A stretch of 64,000 nt of DNA from Sulfitobacter sp. M05 (GTDB lineage Bacteria; Pseudomonadota; Alphaproteobacteria; Rhodobacterales; Rhodobacteraceae). Location of the stretch: the NCBI RefSeq assembly GCF_029285175.1, contig NZ_JABEDH010000002.1:1-64000 (forward strand), in the 5' to 3' direction. The translations under genes were made by a program, and so were the position numbers. The notes beneath the pieces are model-generated. The model made no database searches, had not been told where the DNA came from, and worked only from the letters and a program-made list of their open reading frames with translations. Of this stretch, positions 794 to 27,807 are shown piece after piece (position 1 is the stretch's first letter; each line of letters begins with the position of its first letter).

Positions 794-818
794 TGTGGAA
801 CGTCACATACCTTTGACT
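794..818 (+). repeat. Left terminal inverted repeat, with first TnsB-type site
   Basis: It opens with TGTGGAACGTCACAT, followed by two variable bases and CTTTGACT. It matches the right end read inward at all but three or four positions. The core AACGTCA...A..TTTGAC recurs further in and is the likely transposase-binding repeat. Confidence 0.87.
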
Positions 819-853
819 CAATCAATCTCTATGACCTTATAAAAGCGCGACTA

Positions 854-895
854 CACGTCATTCAATTCTGACCCAAACGTCAAGCATTTTTGACC
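854..895 (+). repeat. Two internal copies of the terminal TnsB-type repeat
   Basis: The pattern AACGTCAnnnAnnTTTGAC of the terminal repeat (799-818) recurs as CACGTCATTCAATTCTGACC at 854-873 and AACGTCAAGCATTTTTGACC at 876-895, in the same orientation. Tn7-like ends carry several same-way TnsB sites, so this supports the left-end assignment. Binding is inferred. Confidence 0.6.
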
Positions 896-939
896 TAGAT
901 GGGTCCATTATCTCTGAAAGCAAAACGACGAAGCCGAGC

Positions 940-1536
940 TCAATTTTCCAAAAGTACTTTCAAGTTTTCCGTCTGAACTCCGCTGCGGCCGACTAGCAAT
1001 TCGGAAAACTCAGCCAAAAGCTTCACGTAGCTGGGAAGAACGACATCTCGGCGATATGAACCTGCCCCAATCTCAAGGCTATTGGGTTCAACGAAACAGT
1101 CTACCCATTCTTCAACCCAGTTCTCGTTCTCTTCAAACCTTGCGCGGTTAGCCTTTATGGCGACCCCGAAGCTGCGACCACGCTTCGTGTCGAAGCAGGC
1201 AGCCATAAATTCATTGTAGGCCTCAACGAGGCCATCATTCATCAGCGGTAGAGAACCAAATATGACTTCGTCTAACTCTCTTTTCAGCGCGATTATCTCC
1301 GTCGGTGATTGGACCGACCAACCGCCGACGTAAGTACAATATTGGTAGATTTTGTTGAGCTGAGCATTGGCTACGGCGAAAACTTCATACTGCTTTTCGA
1401 TAACGAAGTTTCTTCGAGCGACTTCACCCTTCAACCGCTCCAATGAAATCGAGACGATGATGCCAAGCAAAAATATACTGGCGGGCAATGCAACATCGCC
1501 AATCAACGCAATCATCTGATTATTGTCTAAATCCAT
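940..1536 (-). CDS. Hypothetical protein with one N-terminal membrane segment
   Basis: A protein of about 198 aa with a hydrophobic stretch near residues 8-30 (IALIGDVALPASIFLLGIIV), then a charged, mainly helical cytoplasmic-type region. No known family is recognised. The start at 1536 is chosen because a GGAGG lies 8 bases upstream; a longer frame reaches 1584. It overlaps the end of the preceding gene (1520) by 17 bp, so the two are probably translationally coupled. As last gene of a three-gene cargo operon with an AbiGi-like protein, it could be the membrane component of a defence module, but that is context only. Confidence 0.7.
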   Translation of the reverse strand: MDLDNNQMIALIGDVALPASIFLLGIIVSISLERLKGEVARRNFVIEKQYEVFAVANAQLNKIYQYCTYVGGWSVQSPTEIIALKRELDEVIFGSLPLMNDGLVEAYNEFMAACFDTKRGRSFGVAIKANRARFEENENWVEEWVDCFVEPNSLEIGAGSYRRDVVLPSYVKLLAEFSELLVGRSGVQTENLKVLLEN

Positions 1537-2569: not shown

Positions 2570-2571
2570 TC

Positions 2572-3726: not shown

Positions 3727-3869
3727 AATTGGCTCTCAACTCTTATAGGTTGCATGACGGGAGTAGCATATTCAAGTTGGGAAAAATCAACTGCCCGCTT
3801 CGACAAACTTGATGGAAAAACTCGCGAAAAACATCTAAAATTGAAAGTGCGCGCACTTGCGCGCATCGT

Positions 3870-8150: not shown

Positions 8151-8214
8151 CACGCCTTGTTTGATGGATCAAAACAGCGAACACTTACGGCATAGGCGAA
8201 AGGAGCTTTGCGGC

Positions 8215-9090
8215 ATGCATGTCATTACATCAGACATTAATTTGAATGATATCTGGACCGCGCCAATCTGGCCCGAAAGCATCTACGCCCCCGCCTTGGC
8301 TATTTTGCAAAGCCGCACCCATAACGGGCAGACCGCCAGCGGAGCAGGAGGCAGCCGCGAGGTAGCTTTTGAAAAATGCCTCAGTGAAACTGCCGAGATT
8401 TTAGCCCTCGCGGATCAAAAAACCGACTATGTAAGCGTCACTGACGGCTTGGCCGCCCATCCAGATGCAAAAATCGCGCGGCATCATGCGCAGCTTGAGG
8501 CGCTTCAACGGAAATTCATATTGGACTGGTGGGCTGGTGCGTGCCCTGCTGAATATCTCTCAGACGATTGGCTCGACGCAGCTCAGGTCACCGCGTTTGT
8601 GGATCGCGCGCGGGCAGGTGCCACCGTCTATCGCAAAACCCAGCTGTGGCATCTTGCCTGCACCCTGCCCGTCCATTGTATGATTGCCTGTTCAACCAAT
8701 CGTATGGGCCAAGACATCATTCTTGGATTTGGCACCGCAACCGACGCTGCAAGCGCCGCACATCTGGCCGTCACGGAAGTCATGTTGATGGAACTAAACC
8801 TCTATTCCGTCATGGCAGCGCGGGGTGGGTACCGCCACCCTGACACCGCTCGCATTGAGGCTATTATTGACGAATATGCCAAAAGACATGGTGCACTCTT
8901 GTCGGATAGATCCGCCAACGAGGCCAGTCTGGCTTCTGGCACCACCCATGATCTGTCAATCGCAATGCCCGCCCATCGCCTGATTGATCTCACACCGCAC
9001 CCAAAATCACGTCCAGTATGGCTTTGCCAACTTGACGACAAGCGGATCGTCGATGTCTTAAGACCCGACCATCCTTTCATGGCGCAATAG
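8215..9090 (+). CDS. YcaO-like protein, short and with an altered active site
   Basis: About 291 aa from ATG 8215, chosen because AGGAG sits 9 bases upstream (a longer frame starts at 8161 without one). The family pattern is visible: a GAGGSREVAFEKCLSE motif with conserved Glu residues near residue 50, a TDGLAAHPDAKIA segment, and a C-terminal GFGTATDAASAAHLAVTE block. YcaO proteins use ATP to activate peptide amides, making azolines or thioamides in peptide natural products. In the usual E-L-V-E-R-D helix the sequence reads E-A-L-Q-R-K, so one Mg-ATP glutamate and the Asp appear replaced. The protein also lacks the Pro-rich tail. It may be a degenerate or repurposed member. It heads an operon with a haem peroxidase. 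Confidence 0.7.
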   Translation: MHVITSDINLNDIWTAPIWPESIYAPALAILQSRTHNGQTASGAGGSREVAFEKCLSETAEILALADQKTDYVSVTDGLAAHPDAKIARHHAQLEALQRKFILDWWAGACPAEYLSDDWLDAAQVTAFVDRARAGATVYRKTQLWHLACTLPVHCMIACSTNRMGQDIILGFGTATDAASAAHLAVTEVMLMELNLYSVMAARGGYRHPDTARIEAIIDEYAKRHGALLSDRSANEASLASGTTHDLSIAMPAHRLIDLTPHPKSRPVWLCQLDDKRIVDVLRPDHPFMAQ

Positions 9091-9105
9091 GCAAGGAGCG
9101 ACAGG

Positions 9106-10569
9106 ATGACAGACAAAGGCCCACAAAAAGTCACGCTGGATTTCAGCAATAAGCCGATGGGGCAATGCTGCACGGTTTACGACCCTCACGGGGTGCAAAC
9201 CGGTGCAATTAAATCGGATAATGACTTACCCCGTAGGCTTCCAGCGTTTGATTTCGCTGCCCGTGACTGGCGCAACGCCTGTATGACCGAAAAAGCCAGC
9301 ATTCCGGCTGGCTATACCTATTTGGGACAATTGATCGGCCATGATGCAGGCGATAGCCGCAACGCGAATCAAATCCCTCATGTTCAAACCAGTCAGCCAA
9401 GTGCTGATGAGCAAAGCAACGGAGTAGGGGACGGCGGCAACAAAGACGTCCAAACAGGTGCGGATACCCGCCCAAACGGTCGTTACAATATCATCGAAAA
9501 TCCGCTTGCATTTGAAACCCTCTATGGCTCGGGCCCGATCACGCTGCACCACGTTTTTGACCCAATCACAATGCTGTTTAGAGTGTCTTCGACCACTGCG
9601 TTCTCGGTCGATCTCAGCAAAAAAGAGCACCAGCACATCTACGCCCTTTATGACGTACGCAATCGTGACAACCTCATGGTACATCAATTGGCGATCACTT
9701 GGATGAAGTACCACAACTATGTCGCCCTCGCGTTTCGATCCGATCTCAGGGAGCGTGCTGAAGAAGAAGATGGCCTTGCGATGAAGACATTCGTCAAAGC
9801 CCGCAAACACGTGCTGGCCACATGGCACCGTGTGATCCGACAGGATTTTGTGAACGCGATGATACACCCTGATGTGGCCGCCATGTCAGAGACTGATATG
9901 AAGACCTTCGATCCCGTGGACGAGACAACCTTGCAACACGGCATCTTCCGGACCTTCCACTGCATGCCCCGCGCAGACTATCGCATGAAAGGCAAAGGCC
10001 CCAAGAGTTTGCACGAGCTTCTTGCAAGCAATCTTCCAAAACGCTCCGCAGGTGAGCACGAAGGTTGGACAGCCGATCTGGATGAGTTGTTTGATCCGAC
10101 TAATGGCAAAGGCGACAAAACGGGCGTTTCCGCAAGCCTTACTTGGGCGTTGAAGGGATTAATCAGACAGGACTTTGCCACTGCGCAGAACACGAATCCC
10201 TTGCGTCTTTCATCCCACGATATGGAGGCCGTTGTCGCTTTACTGCCCCATGAAAACTGGCGAAATCAGCTCACCCCGCAGGCGCTGAGCGACGCTTTCA
10301 ACGCGGTTATCAAAGGGCAGCATTTTGAACCGTTGAGCCCTCAAGCATTTTCTGAAATGCCGCTTTACGTGCTGTTGATGATCGAAGCCCATCTACACGG
10401 TGGCGCGGGACAGCTAGGCCCCTTGGGCAGTGTTTTGCTCCGCCGCGCGCTTTCTGATCGAATTGATGCCATCGAATTTGGCAAAAACGACCTACCCGAC
10501 GACGGGCCCGCACACCTAAACTCCATGATTGAAATTGTTCGCACTTTGAAAGGAACGGCACATGCCTGA
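9106..10569 (+). CDS. Animal-type haem peroxidase family protein
   Basis: A 487-aa protein of the peroxidase-cyclooxygenase superfamily. Visible are IPAGYTYLGQLIGHD with Gln75 and the distal His79; DVRNRD with the catalytic Arg185; FRTFH with the candidate proximal His285; and the late GQLGPLGSVLLRRAL block. Compared with myeloperoxidase, the Asp that forms one haem ester is Gly78 and the second ester residue Glu is Asp188, so haem is probably not doubly cross-linked. There is no signal peptide, so it is either cytoplasmic or carried by another route. AGGAG precedes the start. It follows the YcaO gene by 15 bp and overlaps the next gene by 8 bp. An oxidative tailoring or toxic-oxidant role is possible. 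Confidence 0.85.
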   Translation: MTDKGPQKVTLDFSNKPMGQCCTVYDPHGVQTGAIKSDNDLPRRLPAFDFAARDWRNACMTEKASIPAGYTYLGQLIGHDAGDSRNANQIPHVQTSQPSADEQSNGVGDGGNKDVQTGADTRPNGRYNIIENPLAFETLYGSGPITLHHVFDPITMLFRVSSTTAFSVDLSKKEHQHIYALYDVRNRDNLMVHQLAITWMKYHNYVALAFRSDLRERAEEEDGLAMKTFVKARKHVLATWHRVIRQDFVNAMIHPDVAAMSETDMKTFDPVDETTLQHGIFRTFHCMPRADYRMKGKGPKSLHELLASNLPKRSAGEHEGWTADLDELFDPTNGKGDKTGVSASLTWALKGLIRQDFATAQNTNPLRLSSHDMEAVVALLPHENWRNQLTPQALSDAFNAVIKGQHFEPLSPQAFSEMPLYVLLMIEAHLHGGAGQLGPLGSVLLRRALSDRIDAIEFGKNDLPDDGPAHLNSMIEIVRTLKGTAHA

Positions 10570-11275
10570 AAAGAATTACATCATCGTTGGCCGCGAGGTC
10601 GGAGAGGCAAAGTTTTTTTTGCACACCGCCAGTAACAAAATTAACAAAACCCGCGGCGATGACGGCATTCCGCTGACTGTGGCCCACATCGGTAAACGTG
10701 TCGTCGAGATGTCCGAGAACGGCGCAATAAAAGAAGGGACGCCTGAATACGAGCGAGCCGTTCGGGAAATCAAATATTCGCTTGAGGTGATCCCGCAAGG
10801 CTCCACGAACCTTACAACCGCGGAAAAAGAAGCCATCTGGGAGAACACAACAGTCCAGCTGAAGTGGGACAAGCGAAGGCCCAATGGCGCTACGGATGAA
10901 AACACCCGCATCATCGTCATTCCTGCAGACAATACACACTCAGTCAACGTCACCACTATGAGCGAGCAGCCACACGGCATGGGGTTTCCCCCTCCTTTGA
11001 CCTATCCACTCGACGTCGATCTGGTGTTTTCGGCCAATATCGACCGCGCCTTAAGCACCATCGATAGTTTTGTGCCCAAAGCGGGTGTCGACCCTTTAAG
11101 TCAGGCACAAAACCAAGCTCTTAAGGACCATATTCGTGAAGAGCTACTGGGCCGTTTCTTTGTGGATCCAGATGAAGACCGACCAGAGATCCTCAGCAAA
11201 CAGGCTGTACTGGAACAACAGCTGGTCTCATACTACCGCGCCGTCGGTATTTACATTACCGAAATGTGTAAGTGA
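10562..11275 (+). CDS. Unknown protein of the YcaO-peroxidase operon
   Basis: A 237-aa soluble protein with no recognised family. The N-terminal 60 residues are basic and mixed alpha/beta, the middle (about 80-130) is probably beta-rich, and the C-terminal 60 are helical and acidic. Its ATG lies inside the last codons of the peroxidase gene, so expression is probably coupled and stoichiometric. It could be a substrate, partner or chaperone of the peroxidase. There are no membrane segments or metal motifs. Confidence 0.65.
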   Translation: MPEKNYIIVGREVGEAKFFLHTASNKINKTRGDDGIPLTVAHIGKRVVEMSENGAIKEGTPEYERAVREIKYSLEVIPQGSTNLTTAEKEAIWENTTVQLKWDKRRPNGATDENTRIIVIPADNTHSVNVTTMSEQPHGMGFPPPLTYPLDVDLVFSANIDRALSTIDSFVPKAGVDPLSQAQNQALKDHIREELLGRFFVDPDEDRPEILSKQAVLEQQLVSYYRAVGIYITEMCK

Positions 11276-11294
11276 CCCCTCCCCGGCGAGGAGA

Positions 11295-11318
11295 GGCGGC
11301 CCTTGACGCGGGGTCGCC
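11295..11318. terminator. Candidate hairpin terminator between convergent genes
   Basis: GGCGGCCC (11295-11302) pairs with GGGTCGCC (11311-11318), with one G-T wobble, and a TTTT follows at about 11325 on the plus strand. It lies in the 46-bp gap between the YcaO-peroxidase operon and the convergent regulator gene. Confidence 0.4.
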
Positions 11319-11321
11319 TCG

Positions 11322-13193
11322 CTAGTTTTGGGTGTAAACGGACAGCAACGTGGCGTGCAACTCTTCCCTGACAGCCTCCGAGCGCAATGGAAAACACGAC
11401 GCGAACCAATCAATCACGGCCTTCGCGTTAGGGGCACCTTGGCCACACCATTGCCCTGCAATTTCGACAACATAACTGTCCAATCGTTCCCGTGCGGCCT
11501 CTGGTTGACCTGTGAGCATCAAGGCCGCCGCATGCCAACCGCCAACAGTAGACATCAGCCCCTGCCCTTGAGCGCATTGTTCAACTGCGACCGCATGGTT
11601 TCCGCACAGAAAGTTTGACGCTGCCAAATAGATCAACTGGAACGGCTCCATAGCACGGGGGAGTTGCTCAACCTCAACAATCAGTTCCTGTGCGCGGAGC
11701 ATGTTGCCCGAAAACGCAAACCCCAACGCTGCAGAGGCCAGCGTCATGGCATTTTGAGAGTTGAGCAACAGGGATTGTTCAAAATGAAACTCGGCCATAT
11801 CAAACTTGCCCGAATGGCAATAGCACCACGCCAACACCCGATGCGCCCGCGTATCCATCGGGTCACTGGCAACGGCCTCAAGGGCATGATCAAGGGCCGA
11901 AAGCATCGCATCTTCTGTGTGACGTGTACCTGGCCGCAGAATATGGCGGACGTTAAGAACACCTGCCAGTTCTGCGTGGGCTGGCCCAAAATCGGGTGCG
12001 GCTATGGTGACCTCATGCAAGAGCCTGATCGCCTCTTCCTCGTCTTGAAGTTGCCACGTGCCAATTAGAGTTTGAGATTCAAGCCATTTGTCATAAACAC
12101 TGGCATTCGTGTCGTGATGCTTACGATGTGACACCACAACACTGAGCGCATTTGCAATGTTGACCACAAGCATCCTGACCTTGCGCGTCCAATCGATATT
12201 CGGGCTTTCGATCATCTCAGACCATACTACAGTGCGTGGACTAGAGCGATGGACATCCACTGATAGATACCGCGCGTCTTCAATGCTGTGGAGCCGACAC
12301 TTGATAGACAAAAACGGGGCCGTCGCAGTGTCATTCGGTTGGATTTCCCATTCACGAAAGCGACCCAACCGCATCCGTAAATCGGAGGTCAAAACGGCCT
12401 GTAGGCTCGCGTCATGACTCTTGTTGGGCGGTTCTTCCTCTTCCACGACCTCCAGTGTGATACGCGGCTTGGCTGGCCCCCTATCCATGTTTGAACGTTG
12501 TCCTTCGGGGTCGAGTTTTATGGCCGCCAATAGATCAATTGTCTCAGCGTCAGGTTCTTGGTCGAAGAACTGATCAAGGTAGGCGTAGAGCTCATTATAG
12601 GTCGCAATTGCTCGAGTTGCAGACCCCGACTGCCACAAGTCCCGCATGATAAAGCGCGCAGCAGTTTCATTGGAAGGCTCCAGTTCTAACGAACATTGGG
12701 CTGCCCATCGCGCCGCCTGGTTATCAGAGTCCACGATAATGGCATCCATCACTTCTTGCACCTTTTTCAGAGTTTGGGCGCGCGCAAACGCCAACCAGCT
12801 GTCAAATGGTGTCGAGACTCCCAACAGTGCATCAAGTATCGATATATATTCTCGGACATCCTGAAATGCATCACTATCGCCCACAGAGCTACCAATCTGC
12901 GTAGCCAGGGCCACCTCAATCGGTCGATCATCAGGCATCTCAAACCCGATCGTGGAGCTACGCGTGATCAGCGTCAAAGCAATCACGTTCTCTGATTCCA
13001 GTCTGATCTGGCGCACGGCTTGCCGAAAGGAGTTCGCCGCTTTGGTTTCACCCGCTCCATCCCAAAGCAACTGCGTAATCATTTCGTTGCGGTAGAACCG
13101 ACCAGGCGTTGAAATCAGATATAGCAGCAAGGCCTGAGATTTTCGCAAACGAAGCTTACGAACAAACGCCAGTCTTGAATTTATAGTTTCCAT
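11322..13193 (-). CDS. AfsR/SARP-like transcriptional regulator with TPR region
   Basis: About 623 aa. The N-terminal about 85 residues have the OmpR/SARP-type winged-helix pattern: L-R-x-x-K-x-x-A-L-L-x-Y-L, a LLW motif and A-x-x-S-F-R-Q-A-V-R-x-I-R. A bacterial transcriptional activation (BTAD-like) helical region follows to about residue 240. The C-terminal half is a chain of helix pairs (HRVLAWCYCHSGKFDMAEFHFEQSLLL) typical of tetratricopeptide repeats. No ATPase domain is seen. The start is uncertain; ATG 13193 lies directly before the winged helix, while a longer frame begins at 13250. It converges on the YcaO-peroxidase operon and is the obvious candidate to control it through the 11-bp-spaced repeats at 8100-8117. 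Confidence 0.75.
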   Translation of the reverse strand: METINSRLAFVRKLRLRKSQALLLYLISTPGRFYRNEMITQLLWDGAGETKAANSFRQAVRQIRLESENVIALTLITRSSTIGFEMPDDRPIEVALATQIGSSVGDSDAFQDVREYISILDALLGVSTPFDSWLAFARAQTLKKVQEVMDAIIVDSDNQAARWAAQCSLELEPSNETAARFIMRDLWQSGSATRAIATYNELYAYLDQFFDQEPDAETIDLLAAIKLDPEGQRSNMDRGPAKPRITLEVVEEEEPPNKSHDASLQAVLTSDLRMRLGRFREWEIQPNDTATAPFLSIKCRLHSIEDARYLSVDVHRSSPRTVVWSEMIESPNIDWTRKVRMLVVNIANALSVVVSHRKHHDTNASVYDKWLESQTLIGTWQLQDEEEAIRLLHEVTIAAPDFGPAHAELAGVLNVRHILRPGTRHTEDAMLSALDHALEAVASDPMDTRAHRVLAWCYCHSGKFDMAEFHFEQSLLLNSQNAMTLASAALGFAFSGNMLRAQELIVEVEQLPRAMEPFQLIYLAASNFLCGNHAVAVEQCAQGQGLMSTVGGWHAAALMLTGQPEAARERLDSYVVEIAGQWCGQGAPNAKAVIDWFASCFPLRSEAVREELHATLLSVYTQN

Positions 13194-13403
13194 AGAATTC
13201 GCCGTTGCAACTACATACCAATCGTAGCTAAAGCATGCGCTACAGGGCAATTATAGTCGAATAGCATTGATCTTGTCAGCTAGCACTTCAAACTTGATTG
13301 CGACAAGACACGATCCTTTTAGCTGCCATTTGTCTTTTTTAGGTATACTCGCAACGGACGCTAGAAGTGTTATCCTATCTGTCTCATTAGACTTAACGAA
13401 TCA

Positions 13404-15484: not shown

Positions 15485-15489
15485 AAGTC

Positions 15490-16236: not shown

Positions 16237-17354
16237 TAGGTAGTCTCCTCTGGGAAAATGGCCTCTATGTGATTTGCGAAGGTGCCGCTTCGCCGCCCCT
16301 TGCCCTTCGAATTGAAGGTCTCGATCTTTCCTTCATCTGCGAGTTTTCCAAGAACATCTTTGTAGTTCTTTGATAGAAATGGTCGGTCCACGCTATGTCG
16401 GCGATAGATGTCTTCCATAGAAACTCGCTGACCCGCATACTCCGTAAGTAACATACCTTCCAATTCATCAAGTGGCCGAGTCAACTCAAATAAGAGCGGC
16501 ATTGACTCGTCGGCTGGCGTGTAAGCGAAGGAAGGAACGCCCTGATCTGCGGTTGTACTAGCTTTCGCCATTATGCTTTTCATCACATCATAGCCCTTGA
16601 AGTCCTTGGATACGAAGACGAGATGATGCGTTAACCTGCCACCTTCGTTCCTGAACCTGAATGGTAGCACGTATTCGCCACCCATTTCATGTAGGGCTTC
16701 CGACATAGCCTCTAGGACCATCTCTTCACGCAAGTGAGGCTTAGCCCCTGCCACTTTTGCCCTAAGTCGATCCGCGTTCTCTTCACCGAATAGTGCATCC
16801 ATATGCGCCTTAACTGGTGGGTTAGTAAGCCCTGCATTTATTCGGTTATAATTGAAAAAGAAGACGCAATCACATCCCCAATCTTTGATGACGCCATTCA
16901 CCAGTTGAAGGGATAGGCCCTTGTACCCAAAGGGGTCGAGGAATGTGAATGTTGGAACTCTTCGCGTTTTTCCAAAGTAGTCGGCTGCGTCTTCACCAAC
17001 GGTGTTTTGGTTGACGGTCGGTTTATGTGCCAGACGTTCGACACCTGGGAGATTGGCAATTTCGTTTGCCAATGTCTGTGTGTTGTTCTCGTCTTGGTCA
17101 TTGAACATAGTGACCAGAGCAGCGGCCACACTGGGGGTCTCAAGGGCCTTTTCGATTACCAATAAAGGTGTAGATGCGGCACCGTCTCGGTAGCGTCCAG
17201 GACCTGCATATAGATCAACGTATGCGATCTTACCGCCATGATATCGCTGGGCCATCGGAAGTATGATTTTTGACCAAGCGTCAAAGTATTTTTGAACTAT
17301 CGTTGCTTTTACTGTCGAGGGTTCGGTTCGTTCTTCGAAAAAAGCTGCACTCAT
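16236..17354 (-). CDS. tcmP: Three-Cys-motif partner protein TcmP
   Basis: About 372 aa. The N-terminal region has the family pattern KATIVQKYF...W, then [11 protein letters not shown], with a FLDPFGYKG motif near residue 140 that recalls Rossmann-type methyltransferases. TcmP proteins are defined by genetic linkage to three-Cys-motif proteins such as DUF5131; their joint function is unknown. GAGAGGCG precedes ATG 17354. The C-terminal about 90 residues look like a winged helix. The gene is transcribed ahead of DUF5131. Confidence 0.87.
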
Positions 17355-17372
17355 GTATACGTCGCCTCTCAC

Positions 17373-17713: not shown

Positions 17714-17899
17714 TTACGTGGTAGCGATCAATTTCCGCAGTGCGGCTACGATCTCGCCTTCAACCTGCGCAAGCCGTAATCCCCGTTCCACGGTTAGTTC
17801 ACGGACCAAGTTTTCTATGTCCACGTTCTTAGGCCCATATAGAAACCAGTCATCGATTGCATGTTGATCAGGATGCCCCACACCTTCGTCCGATTTCAT
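17714..17899 (-). CDS. 61-aa protein translationally coupled to tniQ
   Basis: The ATG at 17899 overlaps the tniQ stop as ATGA, a standard coupling signal, although a longer frame could begin at 17926. The protein is acidic and mainly helical (NVDIENLVRELTVERGLRLAQVEGEIVAALRKL). No family is recognised. Its coupling to tniQ suggests an accessory targeting or regulatory subunit of the transposon; this is inference from arrangement only. Confidence 0.6.
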   Translation of the reverse strand: MKSDEGVGHPDQHAIDDWFLYGPKNVDIENLVRELTVERGLRLAQVEGEIVAALRKLIATT

Positions 17900-19716
17900 A
17901 CGCCATCCCTCTGCCTTACATTGCAACCATGCAAGCCAAACTCACTCTTATTGTAAACTCGGACAAGTGCCCCCGCACAGGGGATTGGCGCAATGCCTTC
18001 AACATCCAGCTTGCGTGCGAGATGGATTGGGGCAACTTTCTGGACTTCCGCCAACTGCCCAAGGGTTACATATGACCGCTCAAATGCTTGGATACTGCCC
18101 TGGGAAATATATTGCTTCTGATGATTGGTATCTGGATTACGTTTGCGGATTTCTGAAAGGATCCCTTGATCTCGCAGGTGTCTGATCGCGGCGACATTGA
18201 TTTTCAAGTACCGAGCGGCTTCAGGTAACGTGATATCTTGGCAAAGCCTTACGGTCTTTCTTGGGCATATTGCGTCCCAATCTACCTCAATTGCATTCAA
18301 GCCCACACCGTCTCCACGGCAGATTTGGCCCTCTAATTCTCCCTTGCGCCAGAGATCAGCAACTTCCGCCAATGGTATACCCTTTTCTCGGCAAAACACG
18401 TTTAGCGGCGCAACCGACTTTCCAAGAAGCACCTCCGGTAGTAGCTCAACTTGCCTCATGAGATCCGTTACCTCAACAAGAGACAGATATCGCAACGTCG
18501 ATGTAATCCGAATGGTCGCCAGCACGCCTCGGTTTTGCAAACCTTTGACCTGAGACGGCATAAGCCCAAGCAGCTCAGCTGCGTCTTTCAAGTTGACAAG
18601 ACCATCCCAGAAAGTTCGAACTTTTGAGATCTCGTCTATATGGACATCCGTTCGTTTGAGAGCTTTTTCTTCTGACACACCGTCCAAATGACCCAATAGT
18701 TTCTTCAGGAAAACTGCGCCAAACCCAAGGCGTTTCCGCGCTTGATCAATCGTGAGCCAGACCTGCTCTGGGGGCAATCGGTCAAAGACCTTTTTGCCAG
18801 GCTGCGTTGGATAGCGCGCAAAAACATGCTCCCGGGCAATACTTGCGAGCACTTCGATCTCTGGCGCATTGCGCACTTCACGCAACCAACGAAAATGCAC
18901 GCCAAAATCGGCCGAGTAATAGGGCCGCTCTGCATTTCCACCGTCGTACAGGCTGGATAACGCGTTCTGATAGGCGTCAGGTCCCTCGACAAGGCTTTGA
19001 AAGCCCGCTTGGCACAGTTCCCTGATCCGCGTTTCTGGCAAATCCTGCATACGTTTGACTTTTACGCCGCATAAAGCAGCGCCAAGCGATACGCTGGCTC
19101 GATGAAGTTGCGTAAGATCTAGATCTTTCAACCAGTCTTCCGCAGCCCCATTTTGGAGCCTTTCCCTGACATAGGTTTCAAAACCGAATTCTGGTATCTC
19201 AACGCTGCGATCGGCTGCTTGAAACACTTCATCACGATGCGCCAAAACACGGGAGACAAAGTCATATGTGGCATGTGAGTTCTCTGCGCTCGGAACCGTT
19301 ATGAAGCGACAGCCATGCTCTGCACATCGATCGATACAAACAAGTGACCACTCTAGTAACTGACAGACGCCGGTAGGCCCAGCCTTAGCCAATGAACGCG
19401 CGACGCATTGCGGGCACAGACGGACAGTTGTGCGCCGCAATGTGCCCATGCTTGCATGCGCTTTCCCCACTCGATATCGGCCATTCCCAACTCGCTTGAC
19501 GCTCGACAACCGTAGCTTTTGAGATGGCTCACCTATCAACCATGCTAAACGTTCAATCTGCTCATCATGACCGCTGCAAAGGGCCGGCCAACGCATGCCG
19601 AGATCAGTACAGAAATCACGCGGGGTCGTCTCATATAGCTTAGCATGTCGGCTAACGTAGCCTGACAGTGCTTCCCCCTCAAAGAGGGGGAGCGCTGGTG
19701 TTAGAGGCGCTGTCAC
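17896..19716 (-). CDS. tniQ: TniQ/TnsD-family target-selection protein
   Basis: A 606-aa TniQ protein. The N-terminal domain has the conserved LFEGEALSGYVSRHA opening and the zinc motif Cys101-x2-Cys104 ... Cys131-x2-H134-G-C136. The C-terminal half carries at least four helix-turn-helix-like units, for example near WLTIDQARKRLGF, NLKDAAELLGLMPSQVK, TLPEAARYLKINVAAIRHL and TLGQLAEVQKVAPIHLARKL. TniQ/TnsD proteins bind the attachment site and recruit the TnsC ATPase. With insertion next to tRNA-Arg, this protein probably reads the tRNA gene or its flank. The start at 19716 overlaps the tniB stop by 4 bp. Confidence 0.92.
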   Translation of the reverse strand: MTAPLTPALPLFEGEALSGYVSRHAKLYETTPRDFCTDLGMRWPALCSGHDEQIERLAWLIGEPSQKLRLSSVKRVGNGRYRVGKAHASMGTLRRTTVRLCPQCVARSLAKAGPTGVCQLLEWSLVCIDRCAEHGCRFITVPSAENSHATYDFVSRVLAHRDEVFQAADRSVEIPEFGFETYVRERLQNGAAEDWLKDLDLTQLHRASVSLGAALCGVKVKRMQDLPETRIRELCQAGFQSLVEGPDAYQNALSSLYDGGNAERPYYSADFGVHFRWLREVRNAPEIEVLASIAREHVFARYPTQPGKKVFDRLPPEQVWLTIDQARKRLGFGAVFLKKLLGHLDGVSEEKALKRTDVHIDEISKVRTFWDGLVNLKDAAELLGLMPSQVKGLQNRGVLATIRITSTLRYLSLVEVTDLMRQVELLPEVLLGKSVAPLNVFCREKGIPLAEVADLWRKGELEGQICRGDGVGLNAIEVDWDAICPRKTVRLCQDITLPEAARYLKINVAAIRHLRDQGILSEIRKRNPDTNHQKQYISQGSIQAFERSYVTLGQLAEVQKVAPIHLARKLDVEGIAPIPCAGALVRVYNKSEFGLHGCNVRQRDGV

Positions 19717-20675
19717 GCTTCCTCTCCATCGAATTCGAAGATCTGTCGCGGGTTTATCCGCGCAAAGTCCTCCGCAATGAACGGGTTGAGGCCGTCGATC
19801 GCAGCACTGCGTTCATAAAACACATCCGCAAAGTGTTTGGCCTCAAGTTTCGCTTCAAAACCATCGCTCTGAAGCGCCTTTGCAAAAGCTTGGACCGTGA
19901 TTTCAGCCATCAGGCCAAACTCGTAATCCGCCGCGTGCATGAGTCGTTGCGCAAACACCTCGTTGCGCACAGATGGCAGCGTTTCGATCTTTGCCTTTGC
20001 AGCGTATTGCTGGATTGTTCCCAACACTGGGGCCACATCACGGATCGCATGCAACCTCCCGATCTCAACTGGATACAAGCGACGTGACAACTGAGGGTCT
20101 TGGTTCACGATCTTCTTGAGATCAGGCATGCCAGAAAGAACAAGTCCTGTCGGCCAGTACGAATTCTCCATAACGGATTTCAGCGTATTGACGACGGACT
20201 GTCGTTCCTTGTCGGTTTGATAGCGCGCCAAGTCCTGTGCTTCATCCAGATGCAGAAAACATGTCTGTCTCAACTTAAGCTGTACTTTAACCTGATCCCA
20301 AATCGCTGGTCCCTGCTTGTCACCCGAATAGGGGTAACCAAGTGCGCGAAGCGTTGCTGCACCGACGAACTTCATGGTTGCTGGACTCGGCACCTGCAGG
20401 CCAAAGAACTCGCAATGGTCCTGCGTGGTATCTGTCATCAGCAACGCCTTGTTCTTCCGGATAAGCTCCCGAATGGCAGTGGTTTTCCCACTGCCAGATT
20501 GCCCAACAACAACGATGCCGCGTGCGTTATTCATCATGCCGTCAGCCATGTCCGCACGGCGTTGTTCCAGCAGGTTGTGGAAGTGTGTTTCCAGCTTTTG
20601 GTATGAGGGGGTCACGAGGTACGTCGAGCGCAGATATTGGATGGTTTTCCGGATTTCATTATTCGTTGTTGTCAT
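19713..20675 (-). CDS. tniB: TniB/TnsC-family AAA+ transposition ATPase
   Basis: About 320 aa from ATG 20675, which lies 17 bp inside the end of tnsB. A longer frame to 21023 is only an overlap with tnsB. Walker A is GQSGSGKTT at about 58-66 and Walker B LHLDEAQD at about 141-148, followed by a sensor region (LVLSGMPDL). These ATPases bind target DNA, connect TniQ to the transposase and give target immunity. It forms the third gene of the tnsA-tnsB-tniB-tniQ operon. Confidence 0.93.
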   Translation of the reverse strand: MTTTNNEIRKTIQYLRSTYLVTPSYQKLETHFHNLLEQRRADMADGMMNNARGIVVVGQSGSGKTTAIRELIRKNKALLMTDTTQDHCEFFGLQVPSPATMKFVGAATLRALGYPYSGDKQGPAIWDQVKVQLKLRQTCFLHLDEAQDLARYQTDKERQSVVNTLKSVMENSYWPTGLVLSGMPDLKKIVNQDPQLSRRLYPVEIGRLHAIRDVAPVLGTIQQYAAKAKIETLPSVRNEVFAQRLMHAADYEFGLMAEITVQAFAKALQSDGFEAKLEAKHFADVFYERSAAIDGLNPFIAEDFARINPRQIFEFDGEEA

Positions 20676-22866
20676 CGTCGTTTTCCTGGTTGGCAGAGTT
20701 GTCATCATTGAACTGCTCGTCATCGCTGGACGGCCAATATGGGATGGGTTCGTCTCGTTTTTCGCGCAAGACAGGTTGATCCTCTGGCTGAGGGTTCGGG
20801 TCATGCTCGATTTCGTTGGATAGAAGACCCTGATTACTTCGGTCGCGACCATCCAATGGCTTGGGGTCCAACTGAGGATCAGAACCCAAAGAGAGCCCCC
20901 AGAAGGTCTCTTTCTGGGCCCGCTTGATCTGTTCGTAGGTCTCGCCAATTGGCCCCAATTGGCGCTGCGCACACTGCTCTGCATCGATTTCTTTAATGCG
21001 CTCGATTGCACGATCGACAACACCTTGTGTCAGGGAGGCGGCATTGCGGTTGTTCTGTCGAAGGTTAAAGATCGTTTGCTCCCAAGCAGCAAAGGACACG
21101 CCGTCAAGCCCATCAATCTGAGACTTGAGGGTGGACCAACCACTGTCTGCACCGTTTTCCAACCAGACCGAGATGTGCCCCATGTCTTCGGGATCAATCC
21201 GAACATCGGCATGCTGTTTTCCAAATTTCTGGAAGTGCTTCGCCAGACGCTCAGAGTGGTAATTCACGCCGTTGACTAAGACACCGTGACGTCCGGTGTC
21301 GCGGGAAAATGCAACACCGAGGATATGCCGCAATGTATGGTTGCTCATCGAGGGGGACCAACCAAATTCCTTGATCAGACGGTCCCAAACTATGTTCGGC
21401 GTCGCATACTCAAGCCCGCTATGTTTGCGGTTGTGGTATACATCGACAGTAAACCGTACCAATAGTTCAATGATGCTCTCCGCCGTGTGCACGGCGTATT
21501 TTTGAGAAGGGTAGTCACCCCGTTCTTTCGGGTTGGAGTGTGTGCGTCCCGTTAAATATGGCATTAGCCGTTTTACAAAGGTGAGGAATACGCGTTCCAC
21601 GTGCCCCCTCAGCTTGGGTATGCCGGCGGGCAACACCGAGTAGTCAATACAGAGGTCTGAAAGAGCCGCTTTGAACTCTGCATTGACGAAGGCAGGTCCG
21701 TTGTCGACCGCAACATGACCTATGTGCCCGTGCTGCTTCCACGCCGTCTCGCAGCCAAGTTGACGTGCAAGATCAGTTTTGTCGCGCATTGCCATCCACA
21801 ACACCGCCTTGGCATCCTCGGCAGTCGGGCTCCTCGACAGCTTCAAGCCAACTATGCTGCGGGTGGCCGTATCGAAAGCGACACAAACCCAGTATCGGCC
21901 AGTTTCGATGTCACGTACGCTGTCTTTGCTTATATCGAACCCACCCTTCTTTAGCAGAGCAATCAGATCAATCTCCCATTCATCCATCTCAATCCGGCTG
22001 AGCGGGACGGCGAGTTTCAATCCTCCGCCATGTGCACCAAGCTTGTTCTTGGCAGCGGCCAATCCCTTTCGAGCCGCAAGAACTTCAAACTGATCAAGTT
22101 CTTTGATCCGCCGCTCGATTGTACTTTGTGAAACTTCGCTTAACGGGATTTCACCACTCAGCTCTCGAACCTTGTTGCGCTTGCGGATTTCAATATTCAC
22201 AGTTTCATGGACATGCGCCGGTGCAATTTGGTTTGGGTGCAAATAGCTTTCGAGGGCCCATTGAATAACGGCTTCTTGCTCTGCACCTACCCGCTTGGCA
22301 TTGCTTCCGTTGAAGGTCGACTTTTTGACAAAGACCATTGGATCTTTGCAGGCTTCCCAATCCCGAACCCACCCCATAATTGATGTTCTGCAAGGTGTTC
22401 GTCGGATAGTAATGCTGTCAAAAGCTGCGCCCGCCGTTGCTTTCTTCAAGCCAAGCCTCAGCTTCTCGGAAACACGGCGTTCGAGGTCTGGCAAAAATTC
22501 ATGCCAACGCTCTGCAGATCGATTAGCCAGGCCTTCGACTTCCATCTCTAGGAATGTTGTGGACCAACATTCTTTCCAGAAGGCATCCAGTTGGGCCTTT
22601 GTTGAAATGCGTGTCATTATCGTGCGTCCAGCAACAGCACGTCTCGCTACTTGGCGGCTTTCAAAGTAGCCATACTGGATCGAAAACTGGCCCCCGTCGA
22701 TTAGTTCGGCAAGCTCTGCGTGAGTGAGCGAGATTGGCTCTCGATCGCCGCGCAGATACTTAATTTCCACGAACAGCGGTGTCACTTTCGTGATTGCGTG
22801 AAGTTCGCCGTTTGCGATGATTGCGTCACAAGTTGTGACGCCAAGGCGGACTGATTCATGTTTCAT
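20659..22866 (-). CDS. tnsB: TnsB/TniA-family DDE transposase
   Basis: A 735-aa transposase from ATG 22866 (AGAGG 9 bases upstream; another ATG two codons earlier). The RNase-H fold is visible with Asp near 295 (EMDEWEID), Asp388 (VAVDNGPAF) and Glu424 (LRGHVERVF). The last about 130 residues after the beta-barrel are acidic and Asn/Asp/Glu-rich at the tail, where TnsC contact is usual. It cuts the transposon 3' ends, joins them to target DNA, and should bind the AACGTCA...TTTGAC repeats at the element ends. It overlaps tnsA at the front and tniB at the back. Confidence 0.94.
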   Translation of the reverse strand: MKHESVRLGVTTCDAIIANGELHAITKVTPLFVEIKYLRGDREPISLTHAELAELIDGGQFSIQYGYFESRQVARRAVAGRTIMTRISTKAQLDAFWKECWSTTFLEMEVEGLANRSAERWHEFLPDLERRVSEKLRLGLKKATAGAAFDSITIRRTPCRTSIMGWVRDWEACKDPMVFVKKSTFNGSNAKRVGAEQEAVIQWALESYLHPNQIAPAHVHETVNIEIRKRNKVRELSGEIPLSEVSQSTIERRIKELDQFEVLAARKGLAAAKNKLGAHGGGLKLAVPLSRIEMDEWEIDLIALLKKGGFDISKDSVRDIETGRYWVCVAFDTATRSIVGLKLSRSPTAEDAKAVLWMAMRDKTDLARQLGCETAWKQHGHIGHVAVDNGPAFVNAEFKAALSDLCIDYSVLPAGIPKLRGHVERVFLTFVKRLMPYLTGRTHSNPKERGDYPSQKYAVHTAESIIELLVRFTVDVYHNRKHSGLEYATPNIVWDRLIKEFGWSPSMSNHTLRHILGVAFSRDTGRHGVLVNGVNYHSERLAKHFQKFGKQHADVRIDPEDMGHISVWLENGADSGWSTLKSQIDGLDGVSFAAWEQTIFNLRQNNRNAASLTQGVVDRAIERIKEIDAEQCAQRQLGPIGETYEQIKRAQKETFWGLSLGSDPQLDPKPLDGRDRSNQGLLSNEIEHDPNPQPEDQPVLREKRDEPIPYWPSSDDEQFNDDNSANQENDDDNNE

Positions 22867-23557
22867 CGTCATTGCCTCTAGGTGCTACGATTGAGTTGGT
22901 GGAAATGAGCTCACGTGTGTTGGCGATGAGTTTCCCCGCATAAATCGCGCGAAAGGCTGCTCTGAAAGCGCGAGCGCCCAAGCCAGACTTGTTGATCAAC
23001 TCAGTCAGAGAGATTTCGCTAAACAAGCGGTTGATCAGGTCGGACACAACGCTATCAGCGTCTTCGTCGGGGCACCGTCGGAAGAAATTCAGAAGTTCCG
23101 CATTTCGGACTTCCACCCGATGCCGTTCCCGTTCCGTTACCAGAAAGACTTTGTCAGCAAAGCCGATCGGCAGGTCGCGCTTGATAGACTCTAGCTCGGC
23201 TTTGAAATTGAGTTTTCTGGCGCGTTCCAGCGGCTTAACTGCAATAGCCACGCGGCGACCACCCCTGAACTCCGCTAGGTAGTCAAATCGATGTGTCCGT
23301 TGTTTGCCATCTACGTCCACGAAGCTGACCGGCTTCGGTTGATCGAACAGATTCCAAAGGTTTGGCATCGCCAGCGTCAGGAGGCAGGTTTCGCGCTCTC
23401 CTTGGCTGGCGCTGATGATCTGCCGCCAGTATTTTTCAGCAGGCGTCATCGCTAAAGTGAAACCGCGCACGGTGAACTTTGATCGCGCAGGGAACATTAG
23501 CCCAGCCGTTGTCGGCGCAGGCGGACGATAGAGATCGTCGTCAAAAAATGAAGTCAT
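22856..23557 (-). CDS. tnsA: TnsA-like endonuclease
   Basis: About 233 aa from ATG 23557; the frame runs further upstream to 23707 without family character. A PD-(D/E)xK core is visible: Glu54/Glu56 in QGERETCLL, then QPKPVSF, Asp92 in HRFDYLAEF and Lys108 in VAIAVKP. This matches the Glu-Asp-Gln-x-Lys layout of Tn7 TnsA, which cuts the 5' ends and makes transposition cut-and-paste. The C-terminal part resembles the winged-helix half. Classical Tn5053/Tn402 elements lack TnsA, so its presence moves this element toward the Tn7 type. Confidence 0.85.
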   Translation of the reverse strand: MTSFFDDDLYRPPAPTTAGLMFPARSKFTVRGFTLAMTPAEKYWRQIISASQGERETCLLTLAMPNLWNLFDQPKPVSFVDVDGKQRTHRFDYLAEFRGGRRVAIAVKPLERARKLNFKAELESIKRDLPIGFADKVFLVTERERHRVEVRNAELLNFFRRCPDEDADSVVSDLINRLFSEISLTELINKSGLGARAFRAAFRAIYAGKLIANTRELISTNSIVAPRGNDDET

Positions 23558-23710
23558 GTTTCTTGCCAAGGCAGCCGGTTTCCCAACGCCAACGGCACTC
23601 CTTGATGTTGAGACAAACGAGACCCGTCCACAGAAGCGCTCTGCAGAGTTGACGGGTCTCGGAATTTGGGTCATGAAGGAGGTGCAAAGGGCGTCAAACT
23701 TTTGCACCTA

Positions 23711-23993: not shown

Positions 23994-24016
23994 AAATTCA
24001 TCAAACTTTTTTGCTG

Positions 24017-24899: not shown

Positions 24900-24978
24900 T
24901 GTGGCTGGCTCAACAGTAGATATGGGGTACCGCATTGGGCGGACAGCGGTCATTTGCTGCACATAGCAGCAACGGCAG

Positions 24979-26655
24979 CTACCGCTTCGCCTTTACGATG
25001 GTAAAGTCCGAGAGGTTCACCCCAAACGCCTTCTTGAAGGAGTCATTTGCCCAACCACTAAAACTTTCTTCGTCGTAGTTATCCGACATCCAGCTGAAAT
25101 CTAACTTGAAGGGGCCGTCGCGCAAAACCCATTGCTCGGTCAGCTCATAAACCGCCATCGACCCATAAAAACGCTCAAAAGTCTGCTGAACCGCTATGTC
25201 TGATCTATTTGGCCATTTCCGCGGGTACACGCCATCTTTATCTTTCCCATCACTGAATAGCGAAAGGTGACGCAGCCATACTTCTTCAACGTCAGCATCG
25301 CTCGAATGGCCTGCCATGTATGCGCCCGGCCAACAGAAGAAATGGGGACTCTCGTACTTGTCGGCGCACATTGAGATGTAGTGTGAGAGGAATACCCTGA
25401 CATTTAGATTTTCAGATTCGAATTCAAACGTTCGATGCTCCTCCATGAGTTTCTGGACACTCGGATATTCCTCGACCCACCTTACAACTTCTTCTAAAGC
25501 GGCCATCGGATGATCATATCCGCGCGCTTCGCATAGCTCCGCAGACACCTCGGCGTATTCTTCAAGAGAAAGGTCGGTGATCGCAGTTTTAAGATGTGGT
25601 GCGGCTTTGATAGCAAAACAGAATTCGGCAAATCTTATGCCTACATCGACTTGGTGAATGAGGTTTTCAACGGGGCCTACCTCGAATGGAAATCCGCGCG
25701 TCGGATTTATCGCGAGATCGCATACAAGGAGAAACAAGGGGACAATTGGATCGAACAAGGACGACGGCCAACTTGTCTCCGTCAGTTTTAAGAAGCTCTC
25801 AAATGCCTCGACGTATATGCCTGACAGATAACCTTCGGTCCGCCAATCTTCACATGTCAGCGGTTCGGTTCTGGCACGGTTCAGGAAATCCAGCTGAATG
25901 AAGTGAGCTTGCCCTTCATAGATTGCTTGGAGACCCACGTAGGGAAGGTGAACATTCGACCCTTTTTTGAATCCTTCATAGCCTTCTTCATGAAGTCTCA
26001 AAGTCTCGTCGCTCAACTGTGTAATGCTCTGAAGAAATTCAAAATCTGGATCGATTACATCTGAAATCAAGCCGATCATCATTCCATGAACAATACTGTA
26101 GGTATAGGCAATATCTTCAAAATGGTTTTGCTCTATCATCCATTTTATGGCCTCCCGTGGGCGAAACGCGTAGGATTTATAATAGAAAACGTCGAGTGCA
26201 TTATTTACTGCAAAATTTGCGGGCGCGAGTTTTTCCTGTGCATCCCACCCCTCATCCTGCAGAATTTGATCTGTCCACCGTTTCAGGGGTTTGATTGGTC
26301 CGAAATTTTCCAAACACTCTCGAAGTTCGCCCATAGTCGAGTGGCATTGCGAAAAATAGCTCAGACTTAGCAGCAACCCCGATGTTGAGCCTACATGCTG
26401 CCACCAATGCATGGTTTCATGTATGTAGGTCGAGTAAGCCTTTATTGCCGCCCACGGCACGGGACCATCGCCAAAGGCATTGGCTTCAATCTTTTCCATA
26501 TACTCATGATTGTGCGGACTGAGACGCAGAACGAAGCGGGTAGTCTCATATACGCCATGGTATTTTGTCGTTGCTGCGAAGCTCAATGGCACCTCAAACT
26601 GATCCGCTTGCGGATCTGAAAAATCATGTTGGAGCTTCGAGGTATCGTCCGACAT
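24979..26655 (-). CDS. Putative zinc metallopeptidase (HExxH), function unknown
   Basis: A 558-aa protein without a signal peptide. YIH79-E80-TM-H83-WWQH is an HExxH zinc motif, and Glu247 in IYEGQAHF could be the third ligand; the spacing (about 165) is long but possible. The rest is helical and Trp/Tyr-rich. No named family is recognised. It lies between the multi-HTH protein and the HD-domain protein, on the right-hand cargo of the transposon. HExxH proteins occur in defence and signalling modules, but that is general knowledge, not evidence for this one. AGGGAAA precedes the start. Confidence 0.7.
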   Translation of the reverse strand: MSDDTSKLQHDFSDPQADQFEVPLSFAATTKYHGVYETTRFVLRLSPHNHEYMEKIEANAFGDGPVPWAAIKAYSTYIHETMHWWQHVGSTSGLLLSLSYFSQCHSTMGELRECLENFGPIKPLKRWTDQILQDEGWDAQEKLAPANFAVNNALDVFYYKSYAFRPREAIKWMIEQNHFEDIAYTYSIVHGMMIGLISDVIDPDFEFLQSITQLSDETLRLHEEGYEGFKKGSNVHLPYVGLQAIYEGQAHFIQLDFLNRARTEPLTCEDWRTEGYLSGIYVEAFESFLKLTETSWPSSLFDPIVPLFLLVCDLAINPTRGFPFEVGPVENLIHQVDVGIRFAEFCFAIKAAPHLKTAITDLSLEEYAEVSAELCEARGYDHPMAALEEVVRWVEEYPSVQKLMEEHRTFEFESENLNVRVFLSHYISMCADKYESPHFFCWPGAYMAGHSSDADVEEVWLRHLSLFSDGKDKDGVYPRKWPNRSDIAVQQTFERFYGSMAVYELTEQWVLRDGPFKLDFSWMSDNYDEESFSGWANDSFKKAFGVNLSDFTIVKAKR

Positions 26656-26823
26656 GATTTTTCCCTATTTCTTCCGCAACTGCAGATTTTGAGCCTTTAG
26701 CCGATAATGTCACAAAAATCTGTAAGCTGCCATTCACTGCGCGCCCTTTGAAGGGCGGCTCTGGGCGGTCATTGTCGCCCAGTGAGAACGCTCCACACCA
26801 ATTTTGCACGTAGCCTACGTTAA

Positions 26824-27354
26824 CTAAATACTCCGAGACAGCCGTTCATCTCCGTCAGAGGCGATTTCTTCGAAGACGCTATCGAGATTTTGAAATAATT
26901 CCCATCGGTCAGTTTGTAGCCGTGCTGCGACGCCATCGATAATTCGTAGCTCCAGGTCGGCGTTTCGCGAACCTTTCCACAATGTATCAGCAAGCGCGAT
27001 CAAAAGTTCTTCGAACGACACACTCATGCTGGCGTATTGTGAGTGGCTGCGGCAGCACCGAGCAATTTGGGCGCAAACTCCTTGTTCAAGAAGTAACTTT
27101 TCGCCTGCTGCTTCATGCAGGTTACCACCTCCTTCAAGCTCGTTCGGATGAACGATTTTTCCCGCATCATGTACCGCAATGCCGACTTGAACGAAGCGTT
27201 TATCGTACTGAACCCCAAGGTCATCAAGCTTTGAGATGATTTCACCACCGACTTCGCCGACTAATTGAAGGTGTTTGAACAATCTTCGCGGTGCACCTAA
27301 TCGTTCGAGCAGGTTGAAAGCGTCTTCCCGAGATTTCAGCAATGCCAGCTCCAA
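26824..27354 (-). CDS. HD-domain phosphohydrolase-like protein
   Basis: A 176-aa protein with the HD-superfamily residues in order: H28 (RLFKHLQLV), H62-D63 (GIAVHDAGK), H80 (GNLHEAA) and H104 (CRSHSQY). HD enzymes hydrolyse phosphates from nucleotides or (p)ppGpp-like messengers. There is no partner synthetase next to it. It is the cargo gene closest to the right transposon end, transcribed away from the tRNA. The 168-bp gap downstream of it before the metallopeptidase gene shows they may not be strictly co-transcribed. Confidence 0.8.
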   Translation of the reverse strand: MELALLKSREDAFNLLERLGAPRRLFKHLQLVGEVGGEIISKLDDLGVQYDKRFVQVGIAVHDAGKIVHPNELEGGGNLHEAAGEKLLLEQGVCAQIARCCRSHSQYASMSVSFEELLIALADTLWKGSRNADLELRIIDGVAARLQTDRWELFQNLDSVFEEIASDGDERLSRSI

Positions 27355-27523
27355 ACAGCATATTCAGGAAAAGGATTTAAGCACTCCTTCTGTGGCATTC
27401 AACTCAGCATCAGTCACTCTGGATTCAGGGCCGCCAAATGCTGGTGCAACTTTAACAAGGATAGCATCGCTCCCAGACCTGCCACCAGCGGGGATGAGCC
27501 GACCACACCCGATAAAAAAAATA

Positions 27524-27807
27524 GGGTGAGGGCGCGGCCCTCCCCCTCGGGCAACCCAATTAGACAGAGCCGAGTCCTCGGCTACGCCTGCGGGCCGCAC
27601 CACCTCTGTCGAATTGCATTGCCTCGCCCCCACCCGCGTTCGCCACGTGGCAGATTTACAGGAGCAGGCGGCTTTGCCGTCTGACCTCCAAATCAGCCCT
27701 GATTTTTGGGAACGGAAGTCAGATCAATGAAACAAAACGTGGGAGCATAAAATGAAAATGTTGGGTCAGTTTATGACGCAAAGGTCAAAGTCATGTGACG
27801 TTCAACA
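27524..27807 (+). repeat. Right end of the Tn7-like transposon (subterminal region)
   Basis: This non-coding 284 bp is repeated, diverged, at 520-787. Its first 128 bp are the best conserved part (for example GCATTGCCTCGCCCCCA) and contain several short inverted repeats. From 27783 outward comes the terminal repeat. Open frames here are by-products of the repeat. Conserved right ends of 100-200 bp or more, with several TnsB sites, are usual for Tn7-like elements. Confidence 0.75.
27783..27807 (-). repeat. Right terminal inverted repeat
   Basis: Read inward on the minus strand it begins TGTTGAACGTCACAT, then GA and CTTTGACC, matching the left end at 794-818. It ends with ACA on the plus strand, followed at once by ATGTG. 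Confidence 0.87.

Follow-up and report, generated by a model that had tools for sequence, protein, structure and literature searches.

The window analysed here, i.e., the 64,000 nucleotides at the start of contig NZ_JABEDH010000002.1 (C7) of Sulfitobacter sp. M05, contains a Tn7-like element of 27,014 bp, E1 (794–27807), that lies behind a tRNA-Arg(ACG) gene (27817–27893, minus strand). We assign a probability of about 0.92 to the reading that E1 is a Tn7-like transposon homing to tRNA-Arg(ACG) with a TnsD-like TniQ protein, and that the same TnsB type most likely also moved satellites, i.e., elements without tns genes. In the proposed mechanism TniQ would work in the manner of TnsD: its N-terminal core would recruit TniB (TnsC), while its C-terminal repeats, which resemble winged helix-turn-helix (wHTH) domains, would read the tRNA-Arg gene. 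TnsA and TnsB would insert the element with its right end a short distance behind the tRNA, which stays intact; the filled site would remain usable, such that elements pile up next to the tRNA in head-to-tail arrays, and TnsB of this type would act as well on elements that lack tns genes.

The left terminus of E1 at 794 reads TGTGGAACGTCACATACCTTTGACT and the right terminus, ending at 27807, reads TGTTGAACGTCACATGACTTTGACC in reverse complement; the two agree in 21 of their first 24 bases. Exact plus-strand copies of ATGTG flank the element on the far side (789–793) and on the tRNA side (27808–27812). Motif searches place three TnsB-type sites (at 800, 855 and 877) in the left end (794–895, plus strand), and together with an alignment of 14 right ends they also place such sites in the right end (27758–27807, minus strand). 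When at most two mismatches are allowed, the motif ACGTCAN6TTTGACC has four matches in the 64 kb: three fall in the first 102 bp of E1, one falls within its last 25 bp, and there are no others. The count as such is unremarkable (shuffle mean 1.69, with four reached in 9 of 100 shuffles), and it is the placement of the matches, not their number, that is telling. The predicted sites would be bound by TnsB, and a comparable left-end layout recurs in satellites and relatives. E1 has what is expected of a Tn7-like element in this respect, i.e., TGT/ACA ends with arrays of TnsB-type sites and a 5-bp duplication.

An earlier, sequence-only reading of this DNA had proposed a complete Tn7-like element with intact ends, and the ends, the exact ATGTG pair and the tnsA-tnsB-tniB-tniQ operon bear this out. 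Its placement of the right end 4 bp from the CCA of the tRNA has to be corrected: 4 bp separate CCA from the ATGTG duplication, and the end of the element itself is 9 bp from CCA (27808–27816). The tns genes, which it described as lying at the near end in the Tn7 family, are closer to the tRNA-side end (4.1 kb, as against 17.1 kb to the far end), but they are not terminal. Recent movement of E1 is plausible.

Five elements with both ends, E1 included, were found at tRNA-Arg(ACG), and each is bounded by a different exact 5-bp duplication: CACAT on the tRNA strand for E1, CCAAT for a 20.4-kb element of Aliiroseovarius zhejiangensis, CCCCT for a 13.9-kb element of Ruegeria sp. R13_0, ATTCT for a 22.9-kb element of Pacificibacter marinus, and ACCCC for an 811-bp mini-element in G450. 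Chance does not produce five distinct exact repeats at a single position, and the exact duplications that four other genomes have at this tRNA take the place of the comparison with an empty site (a single ATGTG) that the sequence-only reading had proposed. The same data bear on a different account of E1, namely an integrase-type tRNA island whose end repeats and ATGTG pair are chance or secondary. Islands of that kind are typically located at tRNA genes, and a serine resolvase gene (13458–14030, plus strand) is present among the cargo of E1; however, the longest match between the tRNA and window positions 1–1500 is 9 nt, compared with a mean of 8.4 and a maximum of 10 in controls, and the differing exact duplications, the complete tns operon and the related ends across the lineage all speak against this account, which we judge very improbable.

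Several sites hold more than one element. Junctions at which a left end is separated by 5 bp from the right end of another element are present in the window and at the loci L280, L283, L289, L293 and L322, with one extra base in between in the window and in L283. The further element in the window, E0, is represented past E1 by a related right end found by sequence comparison (738–787, minus strand), which reads TGTGAGACGACACATAGTTCTGCC. Because the left flank of E1 is this right end, the tRNA site of the window was already occupied. A right end similar to that of E0 follows the element in L283 (at about 18112), and in Shimia sp. R10_1 (L375) tRNA-Arg(ACG) is followed at 11 bp by a very similar one; the E0-like right ends in the window, L283 and L375 therefore indicate that the tRNA-Arg site also serves a second type of element, related to the first. 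Contig C7 starts within what appears, from its translation, to be the tail of an IS3-type transposase.

The operon is encoded on the minus strand in the order tnsA, tnsB, tniB, tniQ. TnsA (22856–23707) has no match in Pfam and a weak one in NCBIfam (2.3e-5, under the curated cut-off), and it was assigned by its fold: for the AlphaFold model (mean predicted local distance difference test score, pLDDT, 86) the best structural matches are Tn7 TnsA and the TnsABCD transpososome (1t0f, 9bw1, 1f1z), with E-values of 2e-8 to 2e-7, the next match being at 8e-3. Residues E60, D98 and K114 (numbered as in the aligned segment), which we take to be the catalytic residues known from Tn7 TnsA, are invariant across 22 aligned sequences. 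TnsB (20659–22872) contains the rve and Mu-transpos_C domains, both above the Pfam cut-off. The TniB/TnsC open reading frame (ORF; 19713–21023) matches PF05621 (TniB) at 2.9e-17, and the true start of the protein probably lies inside this ORF. TniQ (17896–19716) matches PF06527 at 3.9e-14 and appears to consist of a TniQ core followed by five wHTH-like repeats. Its predicted model (pLDDT 87, predicted template modelling score 0.62) resembles the TniQ structures of CRISPR-associated transposon (CAST) systems in Foldseek (best E 2.2e-4); the matches to wHTH domains of the BldC/Xis type (E at least 0.8) are insignificant alone. Five repeat segments, starting at 319, 372, 434, 493 and 548 and picked from the predicted secondary structure, are alike, with a mean pair score of 4.4 versus −14.4 (s.d. 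8.3) for core segments, which suggests that the C-terminal repeats form a TnsD-like DNA-reading tail. Three sequences were excluded from the TniQ alignments: L022, with stops, from the first, and L282 and L290, with a split frame and an internal stop, respectively, from the last. E1 encodes the set of proteins characteristic of Tn7-like elements, i.e., TnsB with Mu-transpos_C, TnsA, an AAA+ ATPase of the TnsC/TniB type and a TniQ/TnsD selector, and is a transposon that is complete and probably autonomous.

A CAST-like element would find its site differently, by a guide RNA within the element that matches the tRNA, as in type V-K. Elements of type V-K do use guides to tRNA genes according to PMC11406308, and the HD-domain protein of E1 (26824–27354, minus strand) has a weak Cas3 match in PADLOC (E 0.008). 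Against this, no Cas family was detected at a Pfam E-value of at most 0.001 in the 20 E1 ORFs scanned, and no exact 16-mer direct repeat occurs at a spacing of 45–90 bp, such that these scans revealed no Cas effector, CRISPR array or guide. The longest match between the tRNA region and the element is 12 nt, a length reached or exceeded in 53 of 100 control segments. As far as these scans reach, guidance by RNA is unsupported, and we judge it very improbable.

The assignment of a dedicated target rests on relatives collected by a TnsB-alignment scan of GTDB species genomes (84,980, one per species), which yielded 79 loci, classed by best-segment TnsB identity in that scan. A tRNA scan covered 60 of these and left out 19. 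Among the 28 scanned loci with a TnsB identity of at least 37%, 14 have tRNA-Arg(ACG) within 10 kb of tnsB (L278, L279, L282, L283, L285, L290–L293, L296, L298, L299, L301 and L311), compared with none of the 32 below 37%, some loci in both groups being shortened by contig ends. The histidine-kinase-like gene that lies upstream of the tRNA in the window (27963–29357, minus strand; name read from the translation) is next to the tRNA in all 14 linked loci (tblastn), and in 11 of them the right end starts 9–10 bp past CCA. Twelve of the 14 loci without a nearby tRNA were then searched across their whole genomes (L314 and L322 were left out, and L278 served as positive control), and a right-end-like sequence is found 9–11 bp past the CCA of tRNA-Arg(ACG) in 11 of these 12 genomes; in six (L280, L281, L288, L289, L300 and L320) the contigs of the tRNA and of the tns genes have equal lengths and were taken to be one and the same. 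The arrangement of tRNA-Arg(ACG) with a right end 9–11 bp behind CCA is seen in Loktanella, Aliiroseovarius, Celeribacter, Ruegeria, Thioclava, Sagittula, Pacificibacter, Leisingera and others, and on the 1.19-Mb plasmid p2 of Tritonibacter mobilis, which encodes a TnsB of 75% identity, a right end is situated 9 bp behind tRNA-Arg(ACG). The search for relatives with the same ends and TniQ beside tRNA-Arg, which the sequence-only reading had advised, was thus successful in several genera, and its proposal of a tRNA-Arg-dedicated lineage agrees with the contrast between near (14/28) and distant (0/32) relatives and with the recurrence of the right end in 11 of 12 others. Comparison of these loci strongly supports a lineage dedicated to tRNA-Arg(ACG).

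Several observations weigh against this picture. No clear right end is present at the tRNA in L290, L298 and L301, nor at tRNA-Arg(ACG) of Ruegeria spongiae (L367), and in the other six of the 12 genomes the tRNA and the tns genes are on separate contigs, the assemblies being broken there. In L314 (Ensifer, TnsB 40%) the neighbouring tRNA gene is a different one, tRNA-Arg(CCT), and lies on the side of tniQ, and no tRNA is present in the stretch of the L322 locus that was scanned. The five bases at the array junction of L293 differ from those at the tRNA, and just 2 of the 10 TniQ repeat pairs score above the 99th percentile of the background.

Some members of the lineage display peculiarities at the tRNA. 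In several relatives with 47–52% identity a second TniQ-like gene or fragment is located just behind the tRNA (L290 4000–4757, L291 4272–5176, L292 3875–4816, L296 6343–7158 and L301 6390–7163), and in Loktanella sp. D2R18 (L278, 3242–3330) the right end is partly duplicated in tandem, with the copies about 39 bp apart. The related tns operon at tRNA-Arg(ACG) of Shimia ponticola (L090/L298), where tblastn found no match for tnsA and no right end is recognisable, looks decayed.

Some 90 bp inwards from the right terminus of E1, folding and covariation reveal a conserved structured, RNA-like element (27520–27707, minus strand), of which a second copy, identified by sequence match, forms part of E0 (519–668, minus strand). 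Folding of window positions 27490–27720 is better than that of shuffled sequences (z −3.6, with 1 of 200 shuffles as good), and when 12 copies are aligned, 15 of the 56 pairs have changed on both sides, compared with 4.7 (s.d. 1.5) after shuffling and with 15 reached in none of 500 shuffles, a control that leaves the relatedness of the copies in. Copies are found near the right ends in L278 (3373–3589), L279, L280, L283 (two), L299 and L360, and further ones in L054, the G450 mini-element, E0 and L298 (near the tRNA). The structured element begins 88–92 bp inside the right end in eight of nine measured cases and at 179 bp in L299; a copy about 60 bp outside an element in G428 shows that it is not confined to right ends. 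Matches also occur on 127 plasmid records, many to the central hairpin only, in bacteria from Phaeobacter to Pseudomonas and Enterobacterales, those in Enterobacterales being to the central hairpin only; in the three plasmids inspected by their annotated genes, the neighbours of the copy include genes for DUF3560, zincin-like metallopeptidase or DUF932/ParB proteins. A search of Rfam gave no match for the structured element, returning only the tRNA and one chance-level match on the opposite strand, and nothing like it was met in the open-access literature searched. A terminator role was considered for the hairpin; it suits E1, where a U-run follows helix 6, but is at odds with the majority of the 12 aligned copies. 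Because the direction of the element relative to the neighbouring genes varies, we commit to no role for it; it is a candidate for a novel structure, of RNA or of DNA, among mobile elements.

Ends of the E1 type are not restricted to elements with tns genes. E2 (C7:115419–124482 in the genome of the window; 9,064 bp) has an exact CCAGG duplication, no tns genes, and TonB, ExbB/ExbD and BtuFCD-like uptake genes, and in E3 (C7, about 490073–495916) imuA-imuB-dnaE2 lie between Tn7-like ends, without a duplication and with a degenerate outer left end; the gene names in both were read from translations. Across 62 genomes of the genus, a right-end profile built from 14 copies gave 40 matches in 13 genomes and a left-end profile built from seven copies gave 60 matches in 16, counts that are descriptive since the seeds were drawn from the same genomes. 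Eight pairs of ends span 411–488 bp and resemble miniature inverted-repeat transposable elements (MITEs); they are interlinked by BLAST. Larger paired-end units measure 811 bp (G450), 2.0–3.5 kb (G423, G428 and two in G418) and 8.7 kb (G403), with arsenic-type genes in the G403 unit and an IS30-like gene in that of G423, both read from translations. Both ends and no tns genes are found in E2, in the units of G403, G428 and G450 and in the eight MITE-like pairs. Among the end pairs inspected only E2 and G450 have an exact duplication (G428 has four of five bases), and the outer left ends of several satellites, E3 included, are degraded; most satellites are therefore probably old.

The surroundings of the satellites were compared with other genomes. 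A MITE-like element of a family of about 450 bp (G422 and G418, L205–L213) is next to tRNA-Arg(ACG) in G422, and partly decayed right ends are located 9 bp behind tRNA-Arg(TCT) in the genome of the window and in G055. In the latter, a 29-kb span from a left end to the right end at tRNA-Arg(TCT) was considered as one element and set aside for its mixed content (read from translations); no TnsB was detected in G055 at an E-value of at most 1e-15. In the sister genome G402 the two neighbour genes of E2 are adjacent, without the 9 kb, and the intergenic sequence is too divergent to display a single CCAGG. The HU and DMT-transporter genes used for comparison of the E3 flanks are close together in G402, where imuA-imuB-dnaE2 lie between tRNA-Arg(TCT) and tRNA-Arg(ACG) without recognisable ends; capture of E3 from this tRNA site was considered, but a right-end-proximal insertion is hard to reconcile with the orientation.

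The type of the ends points to an E1-type TnsB as the most likely mover of the satellites, both the MITE-like ones and those that carry operons. These could instead have been moved by other Tn7-like transposases in the same genomes that are less closely related to that of E1, seeing that E1-type TnsB is found in only one of the 62 genomes, that of the window, whereas 26 further ones encode TnsB-like proteins of 25–35% identity; moreover, L282, with a TnsB of 70%, has a rather different right end. Nevertheless, right-end type mostly follows TnsB relatedness. An E1-type right end accompanies TnsB of 70–91% in eight of nine relatives (L278, L279, L280, L281, L283, L288, L294 and L360), the inner part differs at 60–63% (L284, L285, L286 and L299), and another right-end motif is present at 46–50% (e.g., L289, L291, L292, L293, L296, L300 and L320). 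The right ends of the satellites agree with the E1 type in this comparison, which covers TnsB classes of at least 46% and not the 25–35% class, and movement by the distant transposases appears unlikely, though it deserves some weight. More tentatively, and with a little less than even confidence, Tn7-like ends may be a general vehicle in Sulfitobacter-type genomes: besides the autonomous element that homes to tRNA-Arg, they would move in trans as MITE-like elements and as carriers of operons, among them the SOS mutagenesis cassette imuA-imuB-dnaE2 and the TonB/BtuFCD-like uptake operon. In this view the right end of the autonomous element would also contain a new structured element, which is shared with conjugative plasmids near anti-restriction-type genes and might act in the control of tRNA read-through or in expression on entry.

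The remaining cargo of E1 includes a PD-T7-1 anti-phage protein (14060–15484, plus strand; PADLOC E 6e-154), 95.6% identical to a copy in Loktanella sp. D2R18, and a TcmP and DUF5131 pair (15490–17372, minus strand) that is the PADLOC candidate PDC-M30. The gene of the HD-domain protein adjoins the structured element. A plus-strand cluster at 8161–11275 encodes a YcaO protein, a haem peroxidase-like protein and an unknown protein; with a BTAD/TPR regulator, the region 8161–13250 is a possible peptide-modification cluster.

The lineage offers a clean natural system, with one tRNA, one register, five exact-duplication elements and arrays, for investigating how TniQ/TnsD reads its target, and it also informs on insertion merely 9 bp from a target gene. 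If the satellites were moved in trans, transposition of the Tn7 type would shape the genome past its homing site, with a mutagenesis operon and nutrient uptake genes involved.

E1 shares with Tn7, which inserts at attTn7 behind glmS, the combination of TnsA, TnsB, a TnsC-type ATPase and a TniQ-family selector, a 5-bp duplication, unequal ends with TnsB sites, and a fixed site behind a conserved gene with the right end proximal. It differs from Tn7 in its target, tRNA-Arg(ACG), in its insertion 9 bp behind that gene, in the tail of wHTH-like repeats of its TniQ, and in its tns operon, which is set back 4 kb from the right end. Among the E1 ORFs scanned, no TnsE was recognised. Like the tni relics of class 1 integrons and MITEs, the satellites are non-autonomous units that bear the ends of an autonomous partner, but here the family is Tn7-like with tnsA and includes cargo operons and miniatures of about 450 bp. 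Targeting of tRNA genes by Tn7-like elements is already known: such elements appear to insert downstream of tRNAs according to PMC8649781, and type I-B2 and I-D CASTs have a tRNA-reading TnsD according to PMC11406308. Among the titles and abstract openings of the matches listed from the open-access literature, none describes the present lineage or its satellites; what is new is a lineage dedicated to tRNA-Arg(ACG) with a 9-bp register, together with satellites and a structured element at the right end. According to PMC10293859 and PMC11406308, I-B2 PmcCAST and I-D CyCAST and McCAST use a TnsD/TniQ protein to direct insertion behind a tRNA gene, as is proposed for E1, and they differ in having fused TnsAB and Cas genes, TnsA and TnsB of E1 being separate and no Cas genes being found in the 20 ORFs. 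The register is also distinct, since CyCAST inserts 30–33 nt behind tRNA-Leu (PMC10293859), whereas E1 lies 9 bp behind tRNA-Arg.

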